Shown: positions 575 to 21,426, counted from the stretch's first letter. The stretch is DNA of 25,981 bases from a virus (IMGVR_UViG_3300046758_000204:1-25981), one strand, 5' to 3'. A program made the numbers and translations. Notes: generated by a model not told the origin, from the letters alone.

Positions 575-582
575 TATTTATC
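575..582 (-). promoter_or_regulatory. T4-type late promoter octamer for gp16
   Basis: GATAAATA on the minus strand, overlapping the stop codon of the gp4 gene. If the octamer occupies -13 to -6 as in T4, transcription would start near 569, giving a 22-base leader that contains the AGGA site of gp16. The leader length matches that of gp19 and of the 82-aa gene. Confidence 0.6.
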
Positions 583-1018: not shown

Positions 1019-1392
1019 TACGAGCCTTCAAGTATGTTTCTTGATTCGATTGTTGTGTTAACTTTTTGTTTTCTAAAACCTACTACACTAGTTCTTTTTC
1101 TATTATAGTTAAGTATCTCTGCAACAACTGAACTTAGTTTAACACCGTCTAGTGTTTTTAGTGTATCAATTAATTCAAATATTTTTATATTTTCATTTTT
1201 TGCTTGTCTTAATAAAACAGTTCCAACTGCTACTGCCGCTGTTTTTTCAAACCCTGCTTCTTCAAAAAATGATATTACTACACTTAATTCGTTATCTAAC
1301 AAATTAATTTGAGTATTGTAATATGTATCAAAGAATAACTGTACACCTTTGTCAGATCTTTTTGATATATTTGGTATTGGTAAACTACTCAT
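1018..1392 (-). CDS. Conserved-looking unknown protein, 124 aa
   Basis: I do not recognise a characterised family. The protein is 124 aa, mostly helical by composition, with an N-terminal SLPIPNISKRSDKGVQLFFD segment and a central helix (residues 40-65) containing FFEEAGFEKTAAVAVGTVLL. No transmembrane segment, signal peptide or cysteine is seen. It lies between a tube-like structural gene and gp4 and is joined to both by TAATG overlaps, so it is translated as part of a late structural operon. A minor virion or assembly role is the natural guess. I have a weak memory of similar small proteins beside gp4 in marine T4-like phages, but assign no function. Confidence 0.75.
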   Translation of the reverse strand: MSSLPIPNISKRSDKGVQLFFDTYYNTQINLLDNELSVVISFFEEAGFEKTAAVAVGTVLLRQAKNENIKIFELIDTLKTLDGVKLSSVVAEILNYNRKRTSVVGFRKQKVNTTIESRNILEGS

Positions 1393-2627
1393 TATTCAGC
1401 GTCCTCTAATACTTTTTTCTTATATGATTCTTTTAATGTTGCTGGCAATGATGCCCATGCTGATTGTAAATTATTAACGCCGTCGCCGCCATTACTTAAA
1501 AAGTCTGCTAAAAATAATATCTTAGCTAAAGAATCTAATGCTTCCGGATTATTAGATAATTCGTCAAAACTTTTACTAGAACTAGTATTAGTAGATCTTG
1601 ATGTAATTTTACTGCTAGTTGCTGTAGTTACTGACTGTTGCCCGCCTGCTCCCCTTGTTTTAGGGATAATAATATCTTGTAATCCACTAATATTATCAAC
1701 ATTTGTTATTTGTGATATACTGCTGTATAAGCTATTAAATGCATCACTTAGGTATGTTAAAGGACCATTATCGTAATCAATGTTAGGATCATTATCACGG
1801 TATTCTGGAGAGTTTAAATTTGCTAATAGATCTGTATCTATAGATGATGCAAGTGGTACATTTAATGGACTTGGTTGTGTATCGTAATGTGCAACACCAA
1901 ACCCGGTTGGATTGCCATCTGCACCTACTTCAACAGATCCTCGACTATAATGAACAGCTTCGTATTGAAGCGTAATAGTATTTTGCATAAATGTACCGTT
2001 ATCTGCACTATCAACTTGATCGTGTTCCCAATTTGTAATTATTGGATTTACTAATGTATATGTAGTATATTGCGATCTTGATAATTGAGATATTTGTATG
2101 TTTCTAAAAAAAGGTACCGATAAACTATTGTCTAACCCATATCTAAACTGATTACGTTCTCTACCTTTATATGTATTGTCGCCATCACCGGCTTTGTTAT
2201 ATGCTCCTGCTTCATCGCCATACCACGCATCTGCATAATAATATCTATAATATGCTTCTAGTAATGCAGTTGTTACTCCGTGATTGTCATCATGAAATGT
2301 AATTGTAACAGGCTGATATTGAATTGCTGTTTGCATATGTTTTGTACGATTGTACTTTTTACGTGTTTCTACTGTAGCTTGAAATTTAGGTAAGTCAGCC
2401 ATTTTAACTAACAGTCCTATTTCAATACCATACTTTTCTACTAATGCTTGTATAGTATTACCTACATTAGGATCAATTGCAAAATATGTGTGATAAAGAT
2501 ATTTTGTTTTAGGTGCAAATTTTAAATTGCTACTAACAAATAGCCGCGAAGCATGATTGTAATCTGCTAGATTACCTTTAGGTCCGTTGTAGGCATTTAG
2601 GTTATTCGAATATGCATTAGTGGTCAT
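1392..2627 (-). CDS. Second tail-tube-like structural protein
   Basis: 411 aa. The N-terminal half (about residues 25-235) resembles the gp19 tube fold: a chain of beta strands including LLVKMADLPKFQATVETRKK, a YNR segment, and PVTITFHDDN, which parallels the VxLP...W.PVTL pattern of gp19. Known tube paralogues in T4 are gp54 and gp48, which start the tube on the baseplate, so this may be a tube initiator or specialised tube subunit; that is inference. The C-terminal third (from about residue 260) is low-complexity Asn/Asp/Ser-rich, then a short helix-rich end. The gene follows the gp19 terminator and has its own late octamer only 13 bases before the ATG, with no Shine-Dalgarno sequence. It heads an operon with the 124-aa gene and gp4. 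Confidence 0.75.
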   Translation of the reverse strand: MTTNAYSNNLNAYNGPKGNLADYNHASRLFVSSNLKFAPKTKYLYHTYFAIDPNVGNTIQALVEKYGIEIGLLVKMADLPKFQATVETRKKYNRTKHMQTAIQYQPVTITFHDDNHGVTTALLEAYYRYYYADAWYGDEAGAYNKAGDGDNTYKGRERNQFRYGLDNSLSVPFFRNIQISQLSRSQYTTYTLVNPIITNWEHDQVDSADNGTFMQNTITLQYEAVHYSRGSVEVGADGNPTGFGVAHYDTQPSPLNVPLASSIDTDLLANLNSPEYRDNDPNIDYDNGPLTYLSDAFNSLYSSISQITNVDNISGLQDIIIPKTRGAGGQQSVTTATSSKITSRSTNTSSSKSFDELSNNPEALDSLAKILFLADFLSNGGDGVNNLQSAWASLPATLKESYKKKVLEDAE

Positions 2628-2632
2628 ACTAA

Positions 2633-2640
2633 TATTTATC
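2633..2640 (-). promoter_or_regulatory. T4-type late promoter, leaderless geometry
   Basis: GATAAATA on the minus strand, then TTAGT, then the ATG at 2627. The first base of the octamer is exactly 13 bases from the A of the ATG. With the octamer at -13 to -6, the start of transcription would be the start codon itself. It lies just beyond the gp19 terminator, so it would restart transcription for the tube-like operon. Confidence 0.65.
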
Positions 2641-2660
2641 TATATCTTTTATGTACGTAG

Positions 2661-2690
2661 ATAATAAAAAAGGGGCACTAAGCCCCTTCT
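2661..2690 (-). terminator. Rho-independent terminator after gp19
   Basis: On the minus strand an AAGGGGC / GCCCCTT stem (loop TTAGT) is followed by TTTTTTATTAT. It sits 20-50 bases past the gp19 stop and would separate the abundant tube transcript from the tube-like operon downstream. Confidence 0.8.
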
Positions 2691-2710
2691 TTGCGTTATA
2701 TTAAAATAAC

Positions 2711-3337
2711 TTACGAACCGCCGCCTGTAATTAACGAGCCATTTTGTCTTGGTACACTTACACCAATGCCGCCATCAGCATCAGTTTGAATTGCGTTGTC
2801 ATACTGCATTTCTAGTGTAACAGTAACAGGTTCATTGTTTTGGTATGCTAGTGTATTATAGTTTGCATTTGTAATAAAGCAACCGTATAGTTCAAACGTT
2901 TCTAATACGTTTGGTTGATATACACCATTACCACCATCTAAGATTTCAATACGTGTAGTAAATTTATAATCTTGACCTGATACTGGACTTGACTGTTCCA
3001 TAAAGTCAAATTGCTTCTGTAACTGTTCGCCTACAAGTTTTTGTACAGCGTTATTAACATCTTCACGTAAGTTTAGTGTAATTGGCTGCCATGTATGCTT
3101 GCCTGCTAAGTATGCTTTTGAGTTGTATGCATGAATTTCCATTGGCTCAAAAGCAACAGTTGGACGAGTTACGTCAATAACTTGTTTGGTAAGTTCTGTT
3201 GTCGGAGTTGAAACACCAAAGTTTTCCAGCGACACTCTAAAGCGGTACTGGAGCTTCGGCATCAACAAGCCCTGGCTAGCGGCACTGTCTCCACTAGCTA
3301 ACGGAACTGTAATTTTCGATAATGATGAGATTGCCAT
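2711..3337 (-). CDS. gp19: Tail tube protein gp19
   Basis: 208 aa, somewhat longer than T4 gp19 (163 aa). It builds the inner tube of the contractile tail. Visible family features are the LQYRFRVSLENFG strand near residue 30, TKQVIDVTRPTVAFEPMEIHAYNSKAY (residues about 48-75; the VxRPxxxFE.xEVHxYNS pattern), then WQPITLNLREDVNN and EPVTVTLEMQYDNA near the end. The ATG at 3337 has an AGGAG site 8 bases upstream and a late octamer 34 bases upstream. It directly follows the sheath gene gp18, as in T4, and is followed by a strong terminator. Confidence 0.9.
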   Translation of the reverse strand: MAISSLSKITVPLASGDSAASQGLLMPKLQYRFRVSLENFGVSTPTTELTKQVIDVTRPTVAFEPMEIHAYNSKAYLAGKHTWQPITLNLREDVNNAVQKLVGEQLQKQFDFMEQSSPVSGQDYKFTTRIEILDGGNGVYQPNVLETFELYGCFITNANYNTLAYQNNEPVTVTLEMQYDNAIQTDADGGIGVSVPRQNGSLITGGGS

Positions 3338-3363
3338 TTAATTTGCTCCTAATTGCTTAATAT

Positions 3364-3371
3364 TATTTATC
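3364..3371 (-). promoter_or_regulatory. T4-type late promoter octamer for gp19
   Basis: GATAAATA on the minus strand in the short gap after gp18. The expected start near 3358 gives a 21-base leader carrying the AGGAG site, so tube protein can be made independently of sheath. Confidence 0.7.
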
Positions 3372-3374
3372 ATC

Positions 3375-6300
3375 TTATAAGCCTGCTATTTCGCCAGTAT
3401 TCTTAAGTCTTAACGGAATGTATATAAACTCAATTGATTTAACTGGTTCAATTGCTATATCAACATAAAGCTCATTACGATCAATTCTTGCTGGTGTGTT
3501 GTTTGTTTCATCACACACAACTAGGTAGTCATAAAGTGCTCTTTGTCCTACAAGTTCAAGTAATAAACTTTCAACTTGCTGTTTCATCTCATCACGTGTG
3601 ATCTTATCATTTGGTTCAAAGATATAAGGTTTGGCTAATTGATTTAGTTGTGAACGTAAGTACACTACTAGTCTTGCAACGTTAATTCTGTCTAATGAAC
3701 TTGCGCCTCTTGCACGAGTTTTTTGTCCAAAGTTAACAAGTCCTGCGCCTGTAATAAATGTAATTGGATTAACACTATTACTGTATAATGTGTCACGTTG
3801 TCCTTCGTTTAACGAAGTTGAAACAAATTCTCCTTCGCTACTAATATAACCTGTTGAACTTGCATTAGTAATGCCGCCACGTCTTGTTCCTGCTGGAGCA
3901 AACCATGGATAGCTAACTTGATCACTTAGTGCAATAGTACGCATCATCATATGACTTGGTGGAACTACAACATTATTTCCAAAGTTGTCACTTGTAAAGC
4001 CCCATGGATAAAATACGCCTAAGTATTCATCATTAGTAACAAGTCCGTTGTCGTTATCTTCAACAGCAGAGCGAACATTTGTTCCCCACTCATTAAGTGA
4101 AGTTGCATCTGGTTTTAGTCTTGCTGGGCTATCACCAACAACAAATGCTGTTAAGCCTCTGTCACTGTTTAATGTAGTTAACTCGCCAATTAGTTCTGGA
4201 TACCCAGGACATGCAATTAAGTTAAATCTACGTGCATCTTCGTTTCTAATTTCGTCATTACTATTAACTACTGCTTGTAATTTTTGTACAACAACTTTAC
4301 GCTGTGCTTTACGTCCAAAGCTACCTGAACCATCTTCGTTATTTGCTGATTCAGTAACCCAGCGGTCTGCCGCATATGATGTCATTTCTTCATCGTTAAA
4401 GCGTTTGTTAAGAGCAGTTTTATCAACATATCCAACTTCATAACGCTTAACGTTAAACCCACTTCTACGTGTGTTAAACAATAATGTACCTTTTGGATAT
4501 AATGCAGGATCAGGGCAATCAGGATCAACATAGTTCTTTGTTAATAATGTTTTAATTGTTGCCGCTGTATTTCCTTTTGCTCCACTTTCACCGTAACGTG
4601 CGTCAGCAAATACAATACCATTTTCAGTAGTTTGATCACCATTATCTACTAAGTCCCAACGGTCAATTAATGGACCTTTGTACTTGTAAATAGTTGGATA
4701 GTTTTCAATGTCGCTAGTATCAATCCAAAGATCGCCTGCTACTAATGCACTTGTACCGTCTGATTGTTTTGTTGGTTTTGTAGCTGAAACAATTGGTCCA
4801 TTTGCATCTGTACCGTTAACAGCACTATACACTGGACTAGTTGAATCTTTGTATCCAACCCAAACACTACCATTGTTGATCATAATATCAACTTCATCAA
4901 TTGTTGAGTTGTACCATAGCTGACCTTGTACTGCCGCATTAGACGGAGCATTGTTACTAGGTGTATAACTTAATACTTCCCAATTACTTGCTCTAAACTC
5001 TACTGGTGCAATATTATTGTCAACACCTGGTTCGTTAGCAATAAATCTTGTTCCTGAGCCAGTGCTAATATTATAAGGTGAAATGCCTAATGCATTTAAC
5101 GCTGGTGCCGCACTTGAAACATCGTCTTTAAGTTTCATTTCGCCGCCGTTGCTATGTTTTATAACTATACGATCCTGTGCATCTACACTTGCACTAACAT
5201 ATGGAATATTAGCACTTGTGATTGCAGTTGCTAAGTTATTAGCAGTATCTGCACCAGTTGCTGCCGCAAGCCATGTTATTGAATGTGCTGAGAACGTATT
5301 TGCTCCTGGCGATGTTGAACTAATTTCTAATTTATAAGTTAAACCGTCTGTAAAGTTAGCCGGTGTAACCGCACTAGTTGTTACTGTGGTTGCCCCAACT
5401 GCCGCTCTTTTAAATACTTTAAAGGTAGCAAGTGGACTTGCATCGCCGGCAACATTAGTTTGAATGTATAAATCACCAATTGCTAAGTTAGATCCGCCGC
5501 CTGTTTTATCAAGATCAACTAGCGCATCTTGTGCTGTTGGATATAAAGGCGATGATATTGAATCCCAAATTTTTGTTCCGTCGTTCCACTGTTTTACTCT
5601 CCAACGAGCACCTTGGTTTGGTGTAGTTGTTTTAATCCATATACTTCCTGTTGGACGTCCGTTATAAGCTGTTCCACTTTTAAATGTGTCTGGAATTTGT
5701 GTGTGTTTACTAATTTGTACTGCTGGAATTAAATACTGTTCTGCTGACAAGCCTAACCAAGTTAGTGCAGATGCATCTTCGTTTGGTCCTAATGTAAATG
5801 TAATTCTATCAGTTGCAGAACCATCATTGTATAGTGCTAGTTCACCACTAACTTCAGCTGCCGAAACACCTGATATTGCAAAGCCATTAATTGCTGATAC
5901 AACATCCGCTATTGAATCACCTGTACTTACTGTAACTGTAGTGCCATTAAGTAAAAATACTTCTGATCCGCTTTCTGACGAATCTTCACCGTAAGTTGTG
6001 CTTGTTTTAGAACTTGTTACAGTTGGAACAGAACCAATCCACTGTGACGATCCTACTTTAAGCCATCCGCTTGTAGATCTATACCAAATAGTATTAAGTG
6101 TAGTTACAGTAACAACGGCATAGTCGCCAACTGCACCAATTGATCCTAATGGTGTGTAGTCTGCATTGTCGTAATCAACTACTTGTGCTTGTTCTGTAAT
6201 TGCAAGTGGTATTTTATTAGTAAATGTTTGTCCGCCAGTAACTGATTCACTAGCATTATTCCATTCTTGAATACCGTAAACAGATGATGCAGTGTCTAAC

Positions 6301-6707
6301 CAATATGTACCTGCTGTTGGTGCAGAAGTTGGCACTGTTGAAGTTGGAGTAAGTTCTGCTAGATCTACATCTGCTCTTACTACCCATGCTCTGTTGCTTA
6401 CGCCTAAATATGAATATGCCGCTTGTAGGCCATACTCGTTTAGTTCACTTCCGTGAACTGGATTATTACTTGCATCAGTTTGGAAAACAGGGTCGCCAAA
6501 TGTTTCAGCTAAATCACGTTGCGATGTTAGCAAGTAAGGCTTCCCAGCATTAGATGCTAGTGTTCCTATTGCTGTGCCCGAAGCTGAAGCATTTAGTTTG
6601 TTTTCTTGAGATGCAACAAAAATTACTGGTACTGTACCTGGTTCAGCTGGAGTGTAGAAACTCTCATCTATTACGCTTACCTGTACACCTGGTGATGTCA
6701 ATGCCAT
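3375..6707 (-). CDS. gp18: Tail sheath protein gp18, enlarged by inserted modules
   Basis: 1110 aa; T4 gp18 is 659 aa. The N-terminus (MALTSPGVQVSVIDESFYTP) and the C-terminal core (about 700-1110, with LNQLAKPYIFEPND, LLLELVGQRALYDYLVVCD and a final beta strand IEFIYIPLRLK) are typical contractile sheath regions, including the C-terminal handshake strand. Residues about 130-690 are extra beta-rich sequence containing several copies of a G-x-LW-x-T...W module (near 133, 353, 412, 590 and 661), likely exposed on the outside of the tail. The ATG at 6707 has a strong AGGAGAA site 6 bases upstream, and a degenerate octamer (GGTAAATA) lies 49 bases upstream. The tube gene follows. Plus-strand open frames opposite it are shadows. 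Confidence 0.93.
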   Translation of the reverse strand: MALTSPGVQVSVIDESFYTPAEPGTVPVIFVASQENKLNASASGTAIGTLASNAGKPYLLTSQRDLAETFGDPVFQTDASNNPVHGSELNEYGLQAAYSYLGVSNRAWVVRADVDLAELTPTSTVPTSAPTAGTYWLDTASSVYGIQEWNNASESVTGGQTFTNKIPLAITEQAQVVDYDNADYTPLGSIGAVGDYAVVTVTTLNTIWYRSTSGWLKVGSSQWIGSVPTVTSSKTSTTYGEDSSESGSEVFLLNGTTVTVSTGDSIADVVSAINGFAISGVSAAEVSGELALYNDGSATDRITFTLGPNEDASALTWLGLSAEQYLIPAVQISKHTQIPDTFKSGTAYNGRPTGSIWIKTTTPNQGARWRVKQWNDGTKIWDSISSPLYPTAQDALVDLDKTGGGSNLAIGDLYIQTNVAGDASPLATFKVFKRAAVGATTVTTSAVTPANFTDGLTYKLEISSTSPGANTFSAHSITWLAAATGADTANNLATAITSANIPYVSASVDAQDRIVIKHSNGGEMKLKDDVSSAAPALNALGISPYNISTGSGTRFIANEPGVDNNIAPVEFRASNWEVLSYTPSNNAPSNAAVQGQLWYNSTIDEVDIMINNGSVWVGYKDSTSPVYSAVNGTDANGPIVSATKPTKQSDGTSALVAGDLWIDTSDIENYPTIYKYKGPLIDRWDLVDNGDQTTENGIVFADARYGESGAKGNTAATIKTLLTKNYVDPDCPDPALYPKGTLLFNTRRSGFNVKRYEVGYVDKTALNKRFNDEEMTSYAADRWVTESANNEDGSGSFGRKAQRKVVVQKLQAVVNSNDEIRNEDARRFNLIACPGYPELIGELTTLNSDRGLTAFVVGDSPARLKPDATSLNEWGTNVRSAVEDNDNGLVTNDEYLGVFYPWGFTSDNFGNNVVVPPSHMMMRTIALSDQVSYPWFAPAGTRRGGITNASSTGYISSEGEFVSTSLNEGQRDTLYSNSVNPITFITGAGLVNFGQKTRARGASSLDRINVARLVVYLRSQLNQLAKPYIFEPNDKITRDEMKQQVESLLLELVGQRALYDYLVVCDETNNTPARIDRNELYVDIAIEPVKSIEFIYIPLRLKNTGEIAGL

Positions 6708-6748
6708 TGTTTATTCTCCTATTGGAACTGTGTTCTGTTTATTAATTG

Positions 6749-6756
6749 TATTTACC
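6749..6756 (-). promoter_or_regulatory. Possible degenerate late promoter for gp18
   Basis: GGTAAATA on the minus strand, differing from NATAAATA at the second base. The predicted start near 6743 gives a 36-base leader with AGGAGAA. No better promoter is visible in the 117-base gap between gp18 and the HNH gene. Confidence 0.4.
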
Positions 6757-6811
6757 ATTTTAAATAAAAAAGCCTGTGCAAATACCATAGAAAAAGGGAC
6801 CAAAAAGGTGA

Positions 6812-6819
6812 GCTAAATA
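6812..6819 (+). promoter_or_regulatory. Late-type octamer before the HNH gene, leaderless geometry
   Basis: GCTAAATA followed by TATGT and the ATG at 6825, again exactly 13 bases from octamer start to ATG. A purine-rich AAGGTGAG lies further upstream (16 bases or more), too far for a normal ribosome binding site. Confidence 0.5.
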
Positions 6820-6824
6820 TATGT

Positions 6825-7160
6825 ATGCGTCCATTATGTAAATGCGGGTTAAGACCAGCGGCAATTAACTATAAAAAAGGTAACAAAGTTTACTATCGCA
6901 AGTTATGTGAAAGGTGTTCTCGTAATGGCTTAAATCACGGTGTACCTAAATGGAAACAACGAGGATACAAAAAACTTGATACGTGTGAGAAGTGCGGATT
7001 TCATAGCAAACATGAAGAACAGTTTAACGTGTTTCACATAGACGGAGACTTAGATAACTGTCGACCAGCTAATTTAAAAACCATATGTGCTAACTGTCAG
7101 CGGATTCTTCAAAAAGATGGAGTTGTTTGGAAACAGGGAGATTTAGTGCCTGATTTTTAG
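6825..7160 (+). CDS. Small HNH-like zinc-finger nuclease
   Basis: 111 aa and very basic. Cysteine pairs at 5/7, 28/31, 54/57 and 88/91 suggest two zinc sites. The C-terminal half has an HNH core: His71-x-Asp73 in FHIDGD, Asn78/Asn83 in DNCRPANL, then CANCQ, where the usual final His is Gln. Family knowledge: HNH proteins of this size act as homing or DNA-processing endonucleases in T4-like phages. Similar small proteins may be standard in marine T4-like phages, so it need not be mobile. It is the only plus-strand gene in its neighbourhood, and its last 71 bases overlap the end of the convergent kinase gene. Activity is uncertain because of the missing last His. Confidence 0.75.
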   Translation: MRPLCKCGLRPAAINYKKGNKVYYRKLCERCSRNGLNHGVPKWKQRGYKKLDTCEKCGFHSKHEEQFNVFHIDGDLDNCRPANLKTICANCQRILQKDGVVWKQGDLVPDF

Positions 7161-7653
7161 TAAGAATAGTTCGCATTAAGATATCAACATTTTTATGTAA
7201 TCTTGCAAGGTCTCCATTGTTATCAATAGTATAATCACACATCCATTGTTCAATACTCATCGAACTAGGGTCTTCTAAAGGCAAATGATCTGCTCTATCT
7301 ACCCAAATAGCATAATCAAATATTTTTTCATTTTGCATTGCAAAAAATTCACGCTTATTGCGCAACCCACAATAGATATCATGCTCAGCAAACAAATTAC
7401 GACCTAGTCGTGCAAGATCATCTTTACAGTAATTGTGTATCATATTATACCATTCGGTACGATGATTGTGCCGATCTGCATAACACTCTTCTTCGTTAGT
7501 ATATCCATACTTGTCTTTTAGATCATTAAAAATAAAAAGCTCAGAACAAAATTTACTTGATGATTGGAATGTATAACCGTATTTTTCTAACAGTTCGCAT
7601 ACAGTATCTTTGCCATGTCGACCGTGACCTACAATTAATAACTTAGGTAGCAA
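7090..7653 (-). CDS. P-loop kinase, probably deoxynucleoside monophosphate kinase (gp1-like)
   Basis: 187 aa. A Walker A motif opens the protein (GHGRHGKDT, residues 9-17), followed by a helix CELLEKYGY. Further typical nucleotide-kinase features are a basic, helical DRHNHRTEW segment and a strand FDYAIWVDR near residue 115, which resembles the phosphate-accepting part of T4 gp1 and related dNMP kinases. Gp1 phosphorylates dNMPs for phage DNA synthesis; T4 gp1 is longer (241 aa). The start is TTG at 7653, chosen because an AGGAG site lies 8 bases upstream and no in-frame ATG is available. It has its own consensus sigma70 promoter, consistent with early expression. Its 3' end overlaps the convergent HNH gene by 71 bases. 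Confidence 0.75.
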   Translation of the reverse strand: MLPKLLIVGHGRHGKDTVCELLEKYGYTFQSSSKFCSELFIFNDLKDKYGYTNEEECYADRHNHRTEWYNMIHNYCKDDLARLGRNLFAEHDIYCGLRNKREFFAMQNEKIFDYAIWVDRADHLPLEDPSSMSIEQWMCDYTIDNNGDLARLHKNVDILMRTILTKNQALNLPVSKQLHLFEESADS

Positions 7654-7682
7654 AAGGTAATCTCCTATATAATATACTTTAC

Positions 7683-7711
7683 ATTATATACGATATCTAT
7701 CTTTTTGTCAA
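7683..7711 (-). promoter_or_regulatory. Consensus sigma70 promoter for the kinase gene
   Basis: Minus strand: TTGACA (7711-7706), 17-base spacer, TATAAT (7688-7683). Both hexamers are perfect matches and the spacing is optimal. Transcription should begin near 7676, about 23 bases before the TTG start, leaving room for the AGGAG site. This points to host-polymerase (early) expression within a block of late genes. Confidence 0.85.
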
Positions 7712-7725
7712 GTATAATTTACAAA

Positions 7726-7974
7726 TTAATCGTAGTGTCCACCCAAAACAGCAACTTTTTTGATATCTTCGTTAAAAATTTCTGCTTCGCGTTCTTTCCA
7801 AGCCTTTTCAAACCCTGTTTCGTGGATATAACTTTCGTTATTTCCCCAAAGTCTTTTAAAGTATGAATCGTAGGTTTTTTCGACTTCTTCGTCGCTCCAG
7901 GATCTATCAATTAGTTTGCCTTTGATGATCCAGTTTAATCGGTTGGCTTCTTTACGTACAAATGGACTGCACAT
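7726..7974 (-). CDS. Small unknown protein, 82 aa
   Basis: 82 aa, not assigned to a family. It is charged and aromatic-rich (SWSDEEVEKTYDSYFKRLWG, FEKAWKEREAEIF), probably helical and soluble, with no membrane segment or metal motif. It is supported as a real gene by a strong GGAGGT site 6 bases before the ATG and a possible late octamer 34 bases upstream, the same spacing as for gp19. An overlapping 63-aa frame starting at 7910 lacks such support. It lies between gp13 and the kinase gene, both in the same direction. Confidence 0.75.
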   Translation of the reverse strand: MCSPFVRKEANRLNWIIKGKLIDRSWSDEEVEKTYDSYFKRLWGNNESYIHETGFEKAWKEREAEIFNEDIKKVAVLGGHYD

Positions 7975-7990
7975 TGTGGGACCTCCTATT

Positions 7991-8010
7991 GCTGTATATG
8001 TATTTACAGC
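7991..8010 (-). promoter_or_regulatory. Possible late octamer inside a short inverted repeat
   Basis: GCTGTA and TACAGC arms (6 bp, 8-base loop) enclose TGTAAATA on the minus strand (8008-8001), a degenerate late octamer. The predicted start near 7995 gives a 21-base leader ending in the GGAGGT-ATG of the 82-aa gene. The hairpin has no U-tract, so it is not a typical terminator. Confidence 0.4.
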
Positions 8011-8043
8011 ATAATAAGAAGTTAGCGTTAACGTGTGGGGGTT

Positions 8044-9018
8044 TTAGCCTATTGTGAATCCGTAGCCGACGCCGCCGCCTACTTGCTGTATTACTTCTTG
8101 ATCTAATTTTTCAATTTCCGCCATAGCTTCATTTTTAAGATCATTACCATTAAGAGTTGAGCCACCTTGCGGTCCTGCAATAGTAGCAAATTTTGAACGT
8201 GCTTCGCCTAGCATATATTTACATGTAGCAAGTGTATAATCTTTTACCCATTGATTGACTAAGTAATCTGACAATAGTTCGTCATCTGGTCTATAGTTAT
8301 AAGCATAAAGCATAATAGTTTCAGTTGCTCTAGGACGTTGCAACAGTGTTAATTTTTTAGTAGTATTGTTCCACTTAAATTCGATAAACGAACCAAACAT
8401 TCTTCCTACAAGTTCTTGATATTGACTAAACATATCGTATGTAGCTAATCCGCCCATATTTGAACTTGACAACAAATACGCATTTGTATATGCTAAACTA
8501 AACGGATCAAATAAACTGCCGCCGCCATTTTTTCCGTTTTCGTAAAGTTTTATACTTACAACATCGTTTAAATTTAAACCTGTATTAAAAGTAATGGTTC
8601 TTGAGTCGTTGTCAATTGCATAGGCAGTTGTTGTTATGCCATTTACAGTTACTACAACAGTTGCTATACTTGCTAGGTTATAATTTACATTAAATACCTG
8701 CTGTCCTTCTGTTGCTGTTTCGCCTGTTGAATATATTGGACCTCCAACTGCTGAAGTTCCTGGACGTGAGCCAATGCTTCTTCGAAAACATCTGCGAACT
8801 TCCATAACTTCCTTTGGAAGAGTATATTCATTAACATCTATACTAGTATCCATAAACAAGTATGATTCTTCAACTGCATTATCACTACGTTGTCTAAAAC
8901 GTGTGAGTGCTTTATTTAACGCTGTTTCGTAATGTACAGGATCTAACTCAACATCAATCATACCTCCGCCGAGCATAGCATTAACGTAGTCAAAAATTTC
9001 TTGTTTCATAGTGGCCAT
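8044..9018 (-). CDS. gp13: Neck protein gp13
   Basis: 324 aa from the ATG at 9018; T4 gp13 is 309 aa. With gp14 it seals the filled head and forms the platform for tail joining. Family features: the start MATMKQEIFDYVNAMLGGGM, then VELDPVHYETALNKALTRFR, DPFSLAYTNAYLL, YQELVGRMFG, and the C-terminal helical segment with VKDYTLATCKYMLGEARSKF. A TTG six bases upstream is possible, but GGAGA is better spaced for the ATG and the MAT start fits the family. It is transcribed divergently from gp14 from a shared double late promoter. Residues about 95-165 (Gly/Thr/Val-rich) look like an inserted beta region. Confidence 0.88.
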   Translation of the reverse strand: MATMKQEIFDYVNAMLGGGMIDVELDPVHYETALNKALTRFRQRSDNAVEESYLFMDTSIDVNEYTLPKEVMEVRRCFRRSIGSRPGTSAVGGPIYSTGETATEGQQVFNVNYNLASIATVVVTVNGITTTAYAIDNDSRTITFNTGLNLNDVVSIKLYENGKNGGGSLFDPFSLAYTNAYLLSSSNMGGLATYDMFSQYQELVGRMFGSFIEFKWNNTTKKLTLLQRPRATETIMLYAYNYRPDDELLSDYLVNQWVKDYTLATCKYMLGEARSKFATIAGPQGGSTLNGNDLKNEAMAEIEKLDQEVIQQVGGGVGYGFTIG

Positions 9019-9039
9019 AGACAAAGTTCTCCGTACAAG

Positions 9040-9058
9040 TATTTATCTAAGATAAATA
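9040..9058. promoter_or_regulatory. Divergent, palindromic pair of late promoters
   Basis: The 19-base block TATTTATCTAAGATAAATA holds GATAAATA on the minus strand (9047-9040, for gp13) and on the plus strand (9051-9058, for gp14), separated by only 3 bases. The gp13 transcript would start near 9034, with a 16-base leader containing GGAGA. The gp14 transcript would start at 9064, on the A of its ATG. Confidence 0.8.
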
Positions 9059-9063
9059 TGTAT

Positions 9064-10167
9064 ATGCCAAGACTTAGTTTATACAAACCCGAACGCGGCG
9101 CTGATTATAATTTTCTAGATAAACAAATTCTAGAAATGTTTACCATCGGCGGTACTGATCTCCATATATACAAATATATAGGAACCGACGACGGGACCAC
9201 AGTAAAAGATCATACACAAATACAAGACATGCTGTTTTTAGAAAATAGAGACCGCAAGTACGACAAAGATATTTACAGAATGAGAGGTATCTATAACGTA
9301 CAAGATAATGATTTTGATCTTAGTCAATTTGGATTGTTCTTAAGTAACGATACACTGTTTATGACCGTACATATAAGAAGTACTGTTGAAACATTAGGTA
9401 GAAAACTTATGCCCGGAGACGTGTTTGAGCTTCCTCATTTAATAGACGAGTATGCTGAAAATGATGCTAGTGTTGGTCTAAAAAGATTTTATGTAGTAGA
9501 AGATATTAATAGAGCCGCTGAAGGATTTTCACAGACTTGGTATCCACACTTGTATCGAGTTAAACTAAAACAAATATACGATGGTCAAGAATATAAAGAT
9601 ATTTTAGATTTACCTGCTGTAGAAGAAGATCCAGGTGGCGATAATTTAAGAGATATTCTTTCAACATATGAAAAGGAAATGCAAATTGCACAAGCCGTAG
9701 TTAGTGAAGCTACTACAGAAGTACAAAAATCAGGATACGACATTAGTCACTATTTTTCTCTTGCTGTTGACGATAACGGTATTGTTGAGTTAACTGAAAC
9801 TAAAGACTCTGCAGGTTTGTCGCAAATGGCACCACCGGATAGAGCAGGATATAGAGGCTATATAATAGGCGATGCAATATCACCCAACGGTGAAGCATTT
9901 GGCTTTGGAGTATCGTTTCCAGCCGATCCAGAAACTAATGATTATTTTTTAAGAACAGATTTTTTACCTAATCGACTATTTCAATTTAAAAATAACAAAT
10001 GGAATAAAGTTTATGACGTTAAACGTGCATTTGTTTACGGCGATGATAATACTAATACACAAAAAGGTGGCTTTATCAACAATACTGGTACAAACAATAT
10101 TGCAGGAGAACAAGTTCCTGAAAGACAGAGCTTGTCTAAAGCACTTAGACCTAAGGCGGATAACTAA
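9064..10167 (+). CDS. gp14: Neck protein gp14
   Basis: 367 aa from the ATG at 9064; T4 gp14 is 256 aa. The opening MPRLSLYKPERGADYNFLDK and the IGGTDLHIYKYIG segment match gp14 of marine T4-like phages as I know them. Gp14 acts with gp13 in head-neck completion. Further conserved-looking parts are MRGIYNVQDNDFDLSQFGLF and KLMPGDVFELPHLIDEY. An ATG at 9058 (adding MY) overlaps the promoter octamer and would lie upstream of the expected transcription start, so 9064 is preferred. No Shine-Dalgarno sequence is present. The stop overlaps the gp15 ATG as TAATG, so the two are translationally coupled. Confidence 0.88.
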   Translation: MPRLSLYKPERGADYNFLDKQILEMFTIGGTDLHIYKYIGTDDGTTVKDHTQIQDMLFLENRDRKYDKDIYRMRGIYNVQDNDFDLSQFGLFLSNDTLFMTVHIRSTVETLGRKLMPGDVFELPHLIDEYAENDASVGLKRFYVVEDINRAAEGFSQTWYPHLYRVKLKQIYDGQEYKDILDLPAVEEDPGGDNLRDILSTYEKEMQIAQAVVSEATTEVQKSGYDISHYFSLAVDDNGIVELTETKDSAGLSQMAPPDRAGYRGYIIGDAISPNGEAFGFGVSFPADPETNDYFLRTDFLPNRLFQFKNNKWNKVYDVKRAFVYGDDNTNTQKGGFINNTGTNNIAGEQVPERQSLSKALRPKADN

Positions 10168-11597
10168 TGCAACATTTTTATGACGGACAAATAAGAAGAT
10201 ACTTAACACAGATTATTCGTCTGTTTAGTCAGTTTAGTTATAAAGACGGACAAGGACGTTTAGTTCAAGTACCAGTCATGTACGGAGATCTAACTAGACA
10301 AGTTGGAAGTATTTTGCGTGATAATTCGGAAAATAAAATTCCTAGTGCTCCGCGAATGGCTGTATACATTACTAATTTAGAAATGGATACTGCAAGACTA
10401 GCTGATAGTAGTTATGTAAACAAATTAAATATAAGAGAACGAGCTTACGATGATTCTAATCAAGAATACTTAAATTCTTCAGGAAAAAATTATACTGTAG
10501 AAAGACTAATGCCTACTCCTTACAAACTTACAGTTAATGTAGATATATGGAGTACAAATACTGATCAAAAATTACAAATATTAGAACAAATCTTTATGTT
10601 GTTTAATCCTAGTTTAGAAATACAAACTACAGATAATTATATTGACTGGACTAGTTTAAGTGTTGTTAATATGGATAATATTAACTTTAGTAGTAGAACT
10701 ATACCAACCGGAACTGAAAACGAAATTGATGTTGCAACAATAACTCTTGATACACCAATCTTTATTAGCCCGCCAACTAAAGTTAAGAAGTTAGGCGTTA
10801 TTACTAAAATTATTACAGCCGTATTTGCCGATAATGGGCTTGAAGTGAACATAGATGAGAATGCATACACACAAAGTTTAGTTGAGCAAAAAATTAAAGA
10901 AAATGAAGAAACTACAAAAATTAATGAAGGCAAAAATCAAGCACTTACAAATGAAGATGCATTAGTTGTTACTACGTATCAAGATTACGATTTAGTGTTT
11001 ATTAATGGTGTTGCTAAACTAATGAAAAATGGTACTGTTGGCAATGAGTCATGGACTGCATGGATGATTGCACAACCATTTATATACGAGGCCGGAGTAA
11101 CTCAACTTAGACTGCAACGAGGAACAGGTTTAGAAATAGCTGGTACTGTTCAAATTAATACTGATGACGAAACTGAATTGGAAATAGTTAGCCTTGATGA
11201 AGATTCTTTACCATCAGATAGTGATATTACTGGCCCTAATGGTACTAGAGGAAGTGTAGAATATATTATTGATCCAACAAGATTTGACCCTCGTCAAATA
11301 CAAGATAGTTCATCTAATACAAGATTGTTATTGTTAGGTGACATTGGCAGTTCAAAAAATGTCGACGGCGCTGATGCTTGGAAAAATGAAGATAATACAG
11401 ATTTTATTGCAAGCGAAAACGACATTATTGAGTGGGACGGATTAAATTGGCACATTGTATTTGATGCAAGTACACAATCTAACGAAGCATTTGTAACTAA
11501 CCTTAATACACAAACACAATACAAATGGACTGGTGAAAATTGGATATTATCCTACGAAGGCGAGTATCCAAATGGCACTTGGAGAATGACATACTAG
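10167..11597 (+). CDS. gp15: Tail completion and sheath stabiliser protein gp15
   Basis: 476 aa; T4 gp15 is 272 aa. It caps the tail tube and sheath and provides the head-binding face. Family features lie in the first 230 residues: MQHFYDGQIRRYLTQIIRLF, VPVMYGDLTRQVGSIL, IPSAPRMAVYITNLEMD, YTVERLMPTPYKLTVNVDIW and a final PIFISPPTKVKKLGVI strand. The remaining about 240 residues are an extra C-terminal region, beta-rich and acidic, with WTAWMIAQPF and NLNTQTQYKWTGENWILSYEG; a similar extension is not in T4. It is co-transcribed with gp14 through a TAATG junction. Confidence 0.88.
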   Translation: MQHFYDGQIRRYLTQIIRLFSQFSYKDGQGRLVQVPVMYGDLTRQVGSILRDNSENKIPSAPRMAVYITNLEMDTARLADSSYVNKLNIRERAYDDSNQEYLNSSGKNYTVERLMPTPYKLTVNVDIWSTNTDQKLQILEQIFMLFNPSLEIQTTDNYIDWTSLSVVNMDNINFSSRTIPTGTENEIDVATITLDTPIFISPPTKVKKLGVITKIITAVFADNGLEVNIDENAYTQSLVEQKIKENEETTKINEGKNQALTNEDALVVTTYQDYDLVFINGVAKLMKNGTVGNESWTAWMIAQPFIYEAGVTQLRLQRGTGLEIAGTVQINTDDETELEIVSLDEDSLPSDSDITGPNGTRGSVEYIIDPTRFDPRQIQDSSSNTRLLLLGDIGSSKNVDGADAWKNEDNTDFIASENDIIEWDGLNWHIVFDASTQSNEAFVTNLNTQTQYKWTGENWILSYEGEYPNGTWRMTY

Positions 11598-11605
11598 CAT
11601 AATTA
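11598..11605 (+). promoter_or_regulatory. Possible late octamer before the Nudix gene
   Basis: CATAATTA differs from NATAAATA at one base and lies exactly 13 bases before the ATG at 11611, the same offset as at three other genes. It sits just past the gp15 stop. Evidence is modest because of the mismatch. Confidence 0.35.
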
Positions 11606-11610
11606 CTAGT

Positions 11611-12042
11611 ATGAAAGATATCGTTTGTAGTGGCGCACTACTTTATTCATTAGAAACAAATAGATTCCTGTTCTTACATAGAGCAAACGGAAAAAGAAAT
11701 AACGTTTGGGGATTAGCCGGCGGCGGCAATGAAGAAGGCGAAACTCCCTTTGAAGGTCTTAGTAGAGAAATCCAAGAAGAAATTGGTACATTAAATATTA
11801 AGAAAACAATACCTTTAGAAACATTTATATCTAATGATTCAAAATTTCATTTTCACACATATCTATGTGTAGTTGAAAAAGAGTTTTTACCAAAATTAAA
11901 CGGCGAACATGACGGATTTGCTTGGGTCGGTTTTGGTAAGTGGCCAAAGCCGTTGCACTCGGGTCTTATGAATACCCTTAATAGAAAGAGTAATATTACT
12001 AAACTAAAAACAGTTATTGATGTAATAAATTTACTTGACTAA
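11611..12042 (+). CDS. Nudix hydrolase
   Basis: 143 aa, a single Nudix domain. The Nudix box is complete at residues 38-60: G-x5-E44-x7-R52-E53-I-Q-E56-E57-I-G59, so the Mg2+-binding glutamates are present. Nudix enzymes hydrolyse nucleoside diphosphates linked to other groups, such as NDP-sugars, ADP-ribose, (d)NTPs or capped RNA; the substrate cannot be read from the sequence. WGLAGGGNEEGE and a substrate-side HFHTYLCVV strand are also present. It stands between gp15 and the heptose operon, and its 3' end contains the -35 hexamer of the hldE promoter. A link to nucleotide sugars is possible but inferred. No Shine-Dalgarno sequence precedes the ATG. Confidence 0.85.
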   Translation: MKDIVCSGALLYSLETNRFLFLHRANGKRNNVWGLAGGGNEEGETPFEGLSREIQEEIGTLNIKKTIPLETFISNDSKFHFHTYLCVVEKEFLPKLNGEHDGFAWVGFGKWPKPLHSGLMNTLNRKSNITKLKTVIDVINLLD

Positions 12043-12063
12043 ACCAACGGAGTATAGTATAAT
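12035..12063 (+). promoter_or_regulatory. Near-perfect sigma70 promoter for the heptose operon
   Basis: TTGACT (12035-12040), 17-base spacer, TATAAT (12058-12063). One mismatch in 12 bases, with optimal spacing. Transcription is expected near 12070, the A of the hldE ATG. The GGAG at 12049-12052 lies 17 bases before the ATG and upstream of the predicted start, so it would not be in the mRNA. Confidence 0.8.
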
Positions 12064-12069
12064 AAAATT

Positions 12070-13230
12070 ATGCAAGTATTAATCATTGGCGATATAATTA
12101 TCGATAGATATATTCACGGGACTACTACTAGATTAAATCCCGAAGCACCTGTTCCTGTTGTAAACGTTACTAAAGAGTATGACACGTATGGCGGTGCATC
12201 ATTAGTATTTAAAAACTTAGAGTCGTTAGGTGTTCACGTAACACAACTTCACTACGATGACGAGAAATCAATAAAAACAAGAGTTCTGAGCGATAATCAT
12301 TATATTACACGTATAGATCAAGACACTATTGCAAATGGTGATGATATTGCAAACGATGTTGAAGATCTTGATTTATCTAATTTTGATTATGTAATTCTAA
12401 GTGATTATAATAAAGGTGTGCTTGACAATGTACAAAGAATAATCAAGCATTGTAATAAGTTTAATTGTAAAGTCATTGTTGATCCTAAACGACATGCAGA
12501 CTATTATAAAGGAGCATGGCTTGTTAAACCTAATTCTAAAGAATTTAAAGAATTAGGGTTTGATAAATGGGACGGAAATATAATCATTACTAACGGTGGA
12601 AATGCATGTACAGCAGAATTAGATAATATTAGATATGTATCTAACCCAGATAAAGTTGAAGTATCAGATGTTACAGGTGCTGGAGATTGTTTTCTTGCAG
12701 GACTTGTGTATGGCCTAACTAACGAAATGAGTTTTCAAGAAGCCTTAGATGTTGCTGTTTCGTGTTCAACAGAAAGTGTAAAACATCACGGTACATATGT
12801 TCTTATGCCTAAAGATGTTAGGAAAAAAACAGTGTTTACTAACGGGTGTTTTGATGTATTACATACTGGTCATTTAACTCTTTTAAAAGAAGCTAAAGCA
12901 CAAGGCGATTATTTAATTGTAGGTTTAAATTCTGACGAATCAATACAACAGCTAAAAGGTAACAATCGACCATTTAACAACTATGCAATACGTAGGCAAC
13001 AACTTGAATTAATCCCTTATGTTGACGAGATTATTGAATTTAGCGAACCAACTCCAATTGAATTGATTAAAGATTTACAACCTAATTTAATTGTTAAAGG
13101 CGGCGACTATAAAATAGAAGATGTAGTTGGTCATGACATTGCTCCTGTATATATTGTTCCTACAGTTGAAGGACATAGCACAACAAATATTTTAAAGGCA
13201 CAAGATGAAAATACTAATAACAGGACATAA
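12070..13230 (+). CDS. hldE: HldE/RfaE: heptose-7-phosphate kinase and heptose-1-phosphate adenylyltransferase
   Basis: 386 aa, both domains present. The N-terminal PfkB-type kinase (about 1-245) has MQVLIIGDIIIDRYIHG, the NPEAPVPVV substrate loop, GGASLVFKNLESLG, LSDYNKGVL and the anion hole/catalytic DVTGAGD (200-206). The C-terminal nucleotidyltransferase (about 250-380) has FTNGCFDVLHTGHL with the HxGH motif at 265-268, then GLNSDESI, GGDYK and EGHSTTNI. It makes D,D-heptose 1,7-bisphosphate and, after GmhB, ADP-D,D-heptose. E. coli HldE has 477 aa, so the kinase domain is compact but no motif is missing. It heads the operon, and its end overlaps hldD by 26 bases. No usable Shine-Dalgarno sequence is seen; the promoter implies a leaderless start. 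Confidence 0.93.
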   Translation: MQVLIIGDIIIDRYIHGTTTRLNPEAPVPVVNVTKEYDTYGGASLVFKNLESLGVHVTQLHYDDEKSIKTRVLSDNHYITRIDQDTIANGDDIANDVEDLDLSNFDYVILSDYNKGVLDNVQRIIKHCNKFNCKVIVDPKRHADYYKGAWLVKPNSKEFKELGFDKWDGNIIITNGGNACTAELDNIRYVSNPDKVEVSDVTGAGDCFLAGLVYGLTNEMSFQEALDVAVSCSTESVKHHGTYVLMPKDVRKKTVFTNGCFDVLHTGHLTLLKEAKAQGDYLIVGLNSDESIQQLKGNNRPFNNYAIRRQQLELIPYVDEIIEFSEPTPIELIKDLQPNLIVKGGDYKIEDVVGHDIAPVYIVPTVEGHSTTNILKAQDENTNNRT

Positions 13231-20562: not shown

Positions 20563-21426
20563 TTAACTCCAAGTTATTCTCATCATACCAGGATTACCAG
20601 GAGTACCTCTACAGTAAGATAGTGATCCGCCGCAGTACGATTTCATTGAATTTGATCCACCGCCTGATACTTGTCTAAATCCTCTACAACAGTTAGTACA
20701 ACCACAGTAAACAACTGAATTTTCAATATGATAAGTGTGTCCGTTACTAATTCCCCAAGATGCTGAAACTGATGTGTGTCTTGAGTTACAATCACAGTTT
20801 CCTCTTGATTTAATAAATGCTGGTTCGTCACCTAAGTCTACCCAGTCAAACTTTTGACAGAAACATAATCCGTTATTACACATGCCGTCTGTTCTGTTAC
20901 CTTGGTTATTACATCTGCAACTACAGTAAAGGTTATATCCGCCTCTACCACCTGTCATACACGTACAGCATAAACATCTTCCACTAAATCGTGTCATACA
21001 CCCTCTTGGTGCATCACAACATGCAGTATAGCAACCACATCCGTTGTTAGTAGTTCCGTTGCCGCCTGCGCCAATACACCAGCAATATATACAACCTGGT
21101 GCAAAACATCCGGCCTGTCTATATAGTGTTCTTCGACCGTAGTACCCACTCATTGCTCCACAACTAACCATATCGCACCAGCAGCCTTGACAACAGTGAC
21201 CTGCGCCAGCGCCGCCGCCGCTCCACATTTCAAATTGTACTGTTTGCGCACAATCAGGTACTGTCCAAGTACCTGTTCGCTGACAGTGTGATCTACATCT
21301 GTGTGGACCACAGCATACTAAACATGTGTTAAAGCAGGTACATGTACCACCTGGGGATCTTCCAGCAGTTCGCTGACAAGTCCCGTCTGGGTATTTCATA
21401 CCCGTACTAATTAGCTCAGTTGCCAT
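20563..21426 (-). CDS. Cysteine- and glycine-rich probable tail-fibre adhesin
   Basis: 287 aa with 41 cysteines (14%), many as CC, CxC or CxxC, and many glycines. It begins MATELISTGMKYPDGTCQRT and contains a WSGGGAGAGHCC stretch; apart from the cysteines this recalls the glycine-rich domains of T4-like tail-fibre tip proteins. No signal peptide or membrane segment is seen. Cysteines start at residue 17 and stop about 15 residues before the end. The frame is genuine: GGGAG site, 1-base gap to the fibre gene upstream, and a coupled gene downstream. Likely a virion surface protein, possibly disulfide-stabilised or metal-binding after lysis. I know no characterised homologue. Confidence 0.75.
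   Translation of the reverse strand: MATELISTGMKYPDGTCQRTAGRSPGGTCTCFNTCLVCCGPHRCRSHCQRTGTWTVPDCAQTVQFEMWSGGGAGAGHCCQGCWCDMVSCGAMSGYYGRRTLYRQAGCFAPGCIYCWCIGAGGNGTTNNGCGCYTACCDAPRGCMTRFSGRCLCCTCMTGGRGGYNLYCSCRCNNQGNRTDGMCNNGLCFCQKFDWVDLGDEPAFIKSRGNCDCNSRHTSVSASWGISNGHTYHIENSVVYCGCTNCCRGFRQVSGGGSNSMKSYCGGSLSYCRGTPGNPGMMRITWS

Follow-up and report, generated by a model that had tools for sequence, protein, structure and literature searches.

The question raised by this locus was whether late genes of a T4-like phage can be transcribed from promoters set so close to the start codon that the mRNA would begin on the AUG itself. The window, meaning the whole stretch of DNA analysed, is a 25,981-base IMG/VR viral record (IMGVR_UViG_3300046758_000204:1-25981; 36% GC, 64% AT), and its genes place it in the structural-gene region of a jumbo-type, T4-like myophage. 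It encodes gp13-, gp14-, gp15-, gp18- and gp19-like proteins, a head-closure protein (TnsA-like) and a 411-aa tail-tube-like protein, along with HNH and Nudix genes and then a block of sugar/LPS-type genes. The closest cultured relatives, Sinorhizobium phage Phosso, Agrobacterium phage Atu_ph07, Salicola phage SCTP-2 and Pseudomonas phage PA5oct, are distant (protein identity 32–49%); closer relatives are found in hundreds of uncultured contigs.

In T4, the late octamer spans −13 to −6 relative to the transcription start (PMC1524935), and by this rule the predicted +1 was placed 13 bases from the octamer's first base. Spacing was measured in a comparison set of 94 related viral contigs (1.65 Mb, ORFs called mechanically) from TAAATA to in-frame ATGs near ORF starts, with identical contexts counted once. 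Distances are given as k, the count of bases separating TAAATA from ATG, k = 5 corresponding to an octamer start 13 bases before the ATG (spacing 13) and k = 4 to one 12 bases before it (spacing 12). Features of the window are collected in Table 1.

Table 1. Promoter elements, a terminator and associated genes in the window, in order of position (SD, Shine–Dalgarno sequence)
Feature	Position	Strand	Remarks
Octamer GATAAATA of 168-aa gene (ATG 547)	575..582	-	35 bases upstream; weak SD TAGGACAAATG
411-aa gene, predicted leaderless first gene	1392..2627	-	PHROG tail tube protein families
Late-promoter octamer GATAAATA of 411-aa gene	2633..2640	-	starts 13 bases before ATG 2627
Intrinsic terminator GGGGC-TTAGT-GCCCC-TTTTTT	2666..2686	-	25 bases before 411-aa octamer
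Octamer GATAAATA of gp19 (ATG 3337)	3364..3371	-	34 bases upstream; 21-nt leader with AGGAG
Late-promoter octamer GCTAAATA of HNH gene	6812..6819	+	starts 13 bases before ATG 6825
HNH-domain gene, predicted leaderless	6825..7160	+	conserved N-terminus MRPLC
Octamer TGTAAATA of 82-aa gene (ATG 7974)	8001..8008	-	34 bases upstream; SD AGGAGG
gp13-like gene, leadered	8044..9018	-	PHROG head-tail adaptor Ad2
Octamer GATAAATA of gp13-like gene	9040..9047	-	starts 29 bases before ATG 9018; SD GGAG
Late-promoter octamer GATAAATA of gp14	9051..9058	+	starts 13 bases before ATG 9064
gp14-like virion structural gene, predicted leaderless	9064..10167	+	PHROG 11591; conserved N-terminus MPRLS
Variant octamer CATAATTA of Nudix gene	11598..11605	+	13 bases before ATG 11611; directly 3' of gp15 stop
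Nudix hydrolase gene, probably leaderless	11611..12042	+	
Sigma70-type promoter TTGACT-17-TATAAT of HldE-like gene	12035..12063	+	6 bases from -10 box to ATG 12070
HldE/RfaE-like gene, predicted leaderless	12070..13230	+	named by reading sequence only

The earlier note on this DNA had placed the octamers of the 411-aa, HNH and gp14 genes exactly 13 bases before the ATG, and these coordinates proved exact. The Nudix octamer, described there as fitting with one mismatch, represents a conserved variant (of 44 distinct ortholog upstreams, 43 have TAANTA at k = 5), and none of the four genes has a usable, properly spaced SD, as had also been stated. The start codons of gp14 and HNH are considered correct because the N-termini that follow from them are conserved. 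TAAATA occurs in the window at a frequency of 0.0006 per position, and three occurrences at one given spacing among 27 starts correspond to P ~8e-7, a value not corrected for the spacing having been chosen. As predicted from its sequence, the terminator at 2666..2686 sets the promoter of the 411-aa gene apart from gp19 transcription. An SD had been claimed for genes with an octamer about 34 bases upstream, which holds for gp19 and the 82-aa gene; the third, named gp16, has its octamer at 35 bases and a weak SD. That name was not borne out either, the gene meant being most likely the 168-aa ORF at 41–547, whose sole match is a PHROG family of unknown function.

TATAAATA-like octamers precede late and structural genes, namely gp13, gp14, gp19 and the tail tube-like and terminase-like genes. 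Within the 45-base intergenic region 9018–9064, the octamers of gp13 (leadered, with SD) and gp14 (predicted leaderless) diverge, and 48 of 50 distinct gp14 upstreams of relatives retain this divergent pair. The HNH octamer is directly preceded (6790–6811) by a repeated, conserved element of AAAAAGGGRCC-AAAAAGGTGAG type, also present in orthologs from about 40 contigs; this element falls outside any octamer-initiated mRNA.

Across the 94 contigs, spacing was bimodal, with a sharp peak at 13 and 12 followed by a broad hump at octamer starts 24–36 bases upstream in SD genes. At k = 5, 92–94 distinct upstreams from 19–20 gene families were counted (20 families against a background near 3), and at k = 4, 37–41 distinct upstreams; each k from 8 to 15 held 1–7 and k = 16–28 up to 29. 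Peaks at 13 and about 34 had been anticipated genome-wide: that at 13 is present in two pelagimyophages as well as in the lineage and is missing from T4 and Syn9, and in place of that at 34 there is the hump. Under the T4 +1 rule, the implied leaders in the lineage are about 0 or at least 11 nt long, with few of 3–10 nt. Measured leaders in Lactococcus cremoris, which is rich in leaderless genes, likewise avoid 4–14 nt (PMC10986495), and we propose that leaders of about 3–10 nt are avoided because they would be fit for neither the leaderless nor the SD mode.

The +1 rule was checked independently on leadered promoters, as the ATG is not used in that test. From −1 to +1 at the expected offset, purines rose from 47 to 74% in the clade (45 families), from 45 to 74% in T4 and from 54 to 92% in Syn9, and C was almost missing at +1. 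The jump is supportive, short of proof, because the SD keeps leaders purine-rich downstream.

We consider it highly probable that this T4-like marine phage lineage has a dual leadered and leaderless promoter layout with the full mechanism proposed here. What the sequences show directly is the architecture of these promoters and its conservation; for transcript 5' ends, octamer recognition by gp55 and leaderless translation in the host we infer the following course. A gp55-type late sigma, encoded in relatives, would bring RNA polymerase to N(A/C)TAAATA-type octamers, and, as in T4, the first transcribed base would lie 13 bases from the start of the octamer. In the leaderless class that base would be the A of the ATG or, now and then, a neighbour one or two bases away, and the mRNA would be translated from its 5'-terminal AUG without an SD; in the leadered class at least 11 bases with an SD would lie between start and ATG. 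Some genes under sigma70-type promoters, such as HldE, would share the leaderless layout. The coexistence of two such classes, as the earlier note had it, gains support from SD content, the scarcity of short leaders, the exclusive use of AUG, terminators, divergent gene order and orthologs that switch class by insertion at +1.

Alternatively, transcription might start 1–5 bases before the ATG, so that the mRNA has a very short leader and initiation is nonetheless independent of an SD. Transcription starts can wobble, and orthologs with spacings of 12, 14 and 15 exist; however, most families have a peak a single base in width, the purine jump at +1 of leadered promoters falls exactly on the offset that corresponds to the A of the ATG, and leaders of 3–10 nt are avoided, which makes this alternative improbable. 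A start on the A of the ATG is preferred, with small deviations. At spacing 12, a rigid 13-base rule would put the start on the T of the ATG, so the rule has to be allowed one base of play; in this class, and in the few orthologs at 14–15, the start may lie one or two bases off the A.

A properly spaced SD was present in 18 of 136 members (13%) of the k = 4/5 class versus 158 of 201 (79%) leadered ones (Fisher P 2e-34, in a test in which orthologs are not independent), and families with any SD member numbered 3 of 21 versus 34 of 43. All 18 SD-like sites lie upstream of or overlap the octamer and thus outside the predicted transcript. Apparent SDs of the HNH family were rejected, being GGTGAG-type sequence upstream of or touching the octamer and absent from an octamer-initiated mRNA. 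The start codons at k = 4/5 comprised 135 ATG, 0 GTG and 0 TTG, as expected if a 5'-terminal AUG is required.

Genes of the k = 4/5 class were divergent from their upstream neighbour in 81 of 135 cases (60%), compared with 79 of 913 (9%) for genes without an octamer, and co-directional genes followed an intrinsic terminator in 22 of 53 cases versus 10 of 825 otherwise. In several terminase-like orthologs (named by reading sequence), T-run, octamer and ATG are nearly contiguous (TTTTTTTGAGTAAATACTGTATG), and at some loci the octamer's last base lies just 9 bases from where the T-run of the terminator ends. This arrangement bears on a second alternative, in which the AT-rich octamer would work in the RNA of longer transcripts, for instance as an S1-binding translation enhancer, and not as a promoter. 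AT-rich stretches 5' of start codons can help SD-less initiation. Against such a role stand the enrichment of the class at divergent gene starts and directly after terminators, the occurrence of the same octamer farther upstream in SD genes, and sigma70-type promoters that follow the same spacing logic; we regard it as very unlikely.

The sigma70-type layout, absent from the earlier note, tests the leaderless idea independently of the octamer. In the HldE-like gene, +1 is predicted on the ATG from the 6 bases between the −10 box and ATG 12070. Clade promoters of the form TTGAC-N16/18-TANNNT lie at one of two distances from the ATG, 5–7 bases (40 cases, HldE orthologs for the most part, plus eight other families) or 20–34 bases, with few between, and a box at 5–7 bases would put +1 on or adjoining the ATG. 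In HTVC008M, no enrichment of leaderless-spaced sigma70-type promoters was found. The HldE protein was also used to search bacterial genomes for the host, and no relatives were found there.

Spacing was well kept among orthologs. Of the 76 gp14 orthologs whose start could be identified, 71 have the octamer at k = 5, four have it at k = 7 and one lacks it; HNH orthologs are mostly at k = 4, the window copy being at spacing 13. In the 411-aa family, spacing 13 is found in most orthologs, and SD-leader variants occur in contigs G012, G014 and G010. These SD leaders consist of an insertion right at the predicted +1, GATAAATATTAGT directly followed by ATG corresponding to GATAAATATTAAT followed by ATAGGAGAAACAAT and ATG. 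In a gp14 subclade (L054 and others), ATC replaces the ATG, and AACAATAGGAGA with a new ATG is inserted at the predicted +1. For gp14 of L054, L062, L066, L073 and L075, the ancestral start codon position reads ATC at good SD spacing, and the ATG two codons upstream lies just 1 base after AGGAG; a non-AUG start is conceivable in these five.

Outside the lineage, Pelagibacter phage HTVC008M has 11 genes at k = 5 (SD in 0 of 12), among them those for DNA end protector, head closure, tail tube cap, baseplate wedge and tail completion, and Pelagibacter phage Mosig has 6 genes at leaderless spacing (SD in 0 of 6). Judged by octamer spacing, the layout is common to the window lineage and these pelagimyophages, which differ in belonging to another T4-like family (Kyanoviridae) and in being cultured on Ca. 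Pelagibacter ubique. PA5oct has two octamers at k = 4 or 5, none was found there in T4 or in the marine cyanophage Syn9, and phiM12, phiM9 and Cr30 gave no match to the k = 5 pattern. A general T4-like trait was rejected on these counts for T4, Syn9 and PA5oct and because pattern counts were near control in most other cultured T4-like or jumbo phages checked. Chance or misannotated start codons, suggested by the AT-rich genome and the simplicity of the hexamer, have a negligible probability, since dinucleotide shuffles of the upstreams gave a mean of 4 at k = 5 (maximum 15 at any k; observed 94), other AT-rich hexamers outside the octamer showed no comparable peak, reversed-pattern controls and the spacing and ortholog tests likewise spoke against chance, N-termini are conserved, and 11 of 12 HTVC008M pattern matches within the annotated stretches examined sit exactly on deposited CDS starts.

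The leaderless-spaced class includes virion genes (tail tube-like, gp14, terminase-like), and we lean towards the broader view that a large share of virion genes is expressed from truly leaderless mRNAs with gp55-directed AUG starts, that an SD cassette at +1 acts as an evolvable switch, and that the arrangement arose more than once in marine phages.

A gp55-type late sigma was detected in the three largest contigs (G012, G014, G017; E 7e-75 to 1e-82) and in PA5oct (E 7e-75 to 6e-83 over all four); it was not found in the window, itself a genome fragment. Searches for gp33 and gp45 (PF16805, PF02916) gave no match in the clade contigs with models that are insensitive, PF02916 being sub-threshold in HTVC008M despite an annotated clamp and missing Syn9. 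The ribosomal protein bS21 takes part in translation initiation and was sought as a link to it. It is encoded by HTVC008M (91228–91431; L224) and by PA5oct (near 171000; L225); the clade contigs, incomplete as they are, yielded no match.

With T4 late promoters (gp55/gp33/gp45) the lineage has in common the TAAATA core, a predicted start 13 bases from the octamer's first base, a purine at the predicted +1 and, in relatives, a gp55-type sigma. T4 and Syn9 differ in lacking octamers at leaderless spacing, and in T4 the commonest TAAATA–ATG distance is 28 bases, mostly with an SD. The lambda cI mRNA is leaderless, from a single phage repressor gene. Leaderless cellular genes have been described in which a TA-like −10 signal precedes the start by about 12 bp (Zheng et al. 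2011, PMC3160421). Both resemble the present class in a promoter element at about −10 from the start codon, the lack of an SD and the use of AUG; the cellular genes have a host sigma70-type −10, whereas here a phage late-sigma octamer would serve many virion genes. L. cremoris is similar in having leaders near zero or of about 15 nt and more, with none at 4–14, and differs in being a bacterium with measured 5' ends, whereas leaders of the phage lineage are deduced from sequence (PMC10986495). The open-access literature searched contained no description of T4-like phages with leaderless late transcripts, an absence that is no proof.

In the prevailing view, the virion mRNAs that T4-like phages make late have leaders and depend on an SD, and T4 and Syn9 conform to it; in a widespread marine lineage and in cultured Pelagibacter phages, numerous structural genes appear to be leaderless. 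This matters for the annotation of gene starts, for the competition of such phages for ribosomes in late infection and for translation in the host. Behind the same promoter, some orthologs have an SD cassette inserted at +1 and others have none, which constitutes a clean natural experiment, and HTVC008M on Ca. Pelagibacter ubique HTCC1062 is a directly testable system.

Two further proteins of the window were conspicuous. The tail sheath (3375–6707, minus strand) has 1110 aa, with a similar length in Phosso and Atu_ph07; T4 gp18, at about 660 aa, is far shorter. A 287-aa ORF (20563–21426, minus strand) is exceptionally Cys/Gly-rich, resembles a 324-aa protein of contig G017 and is possibly a virion adhesin.
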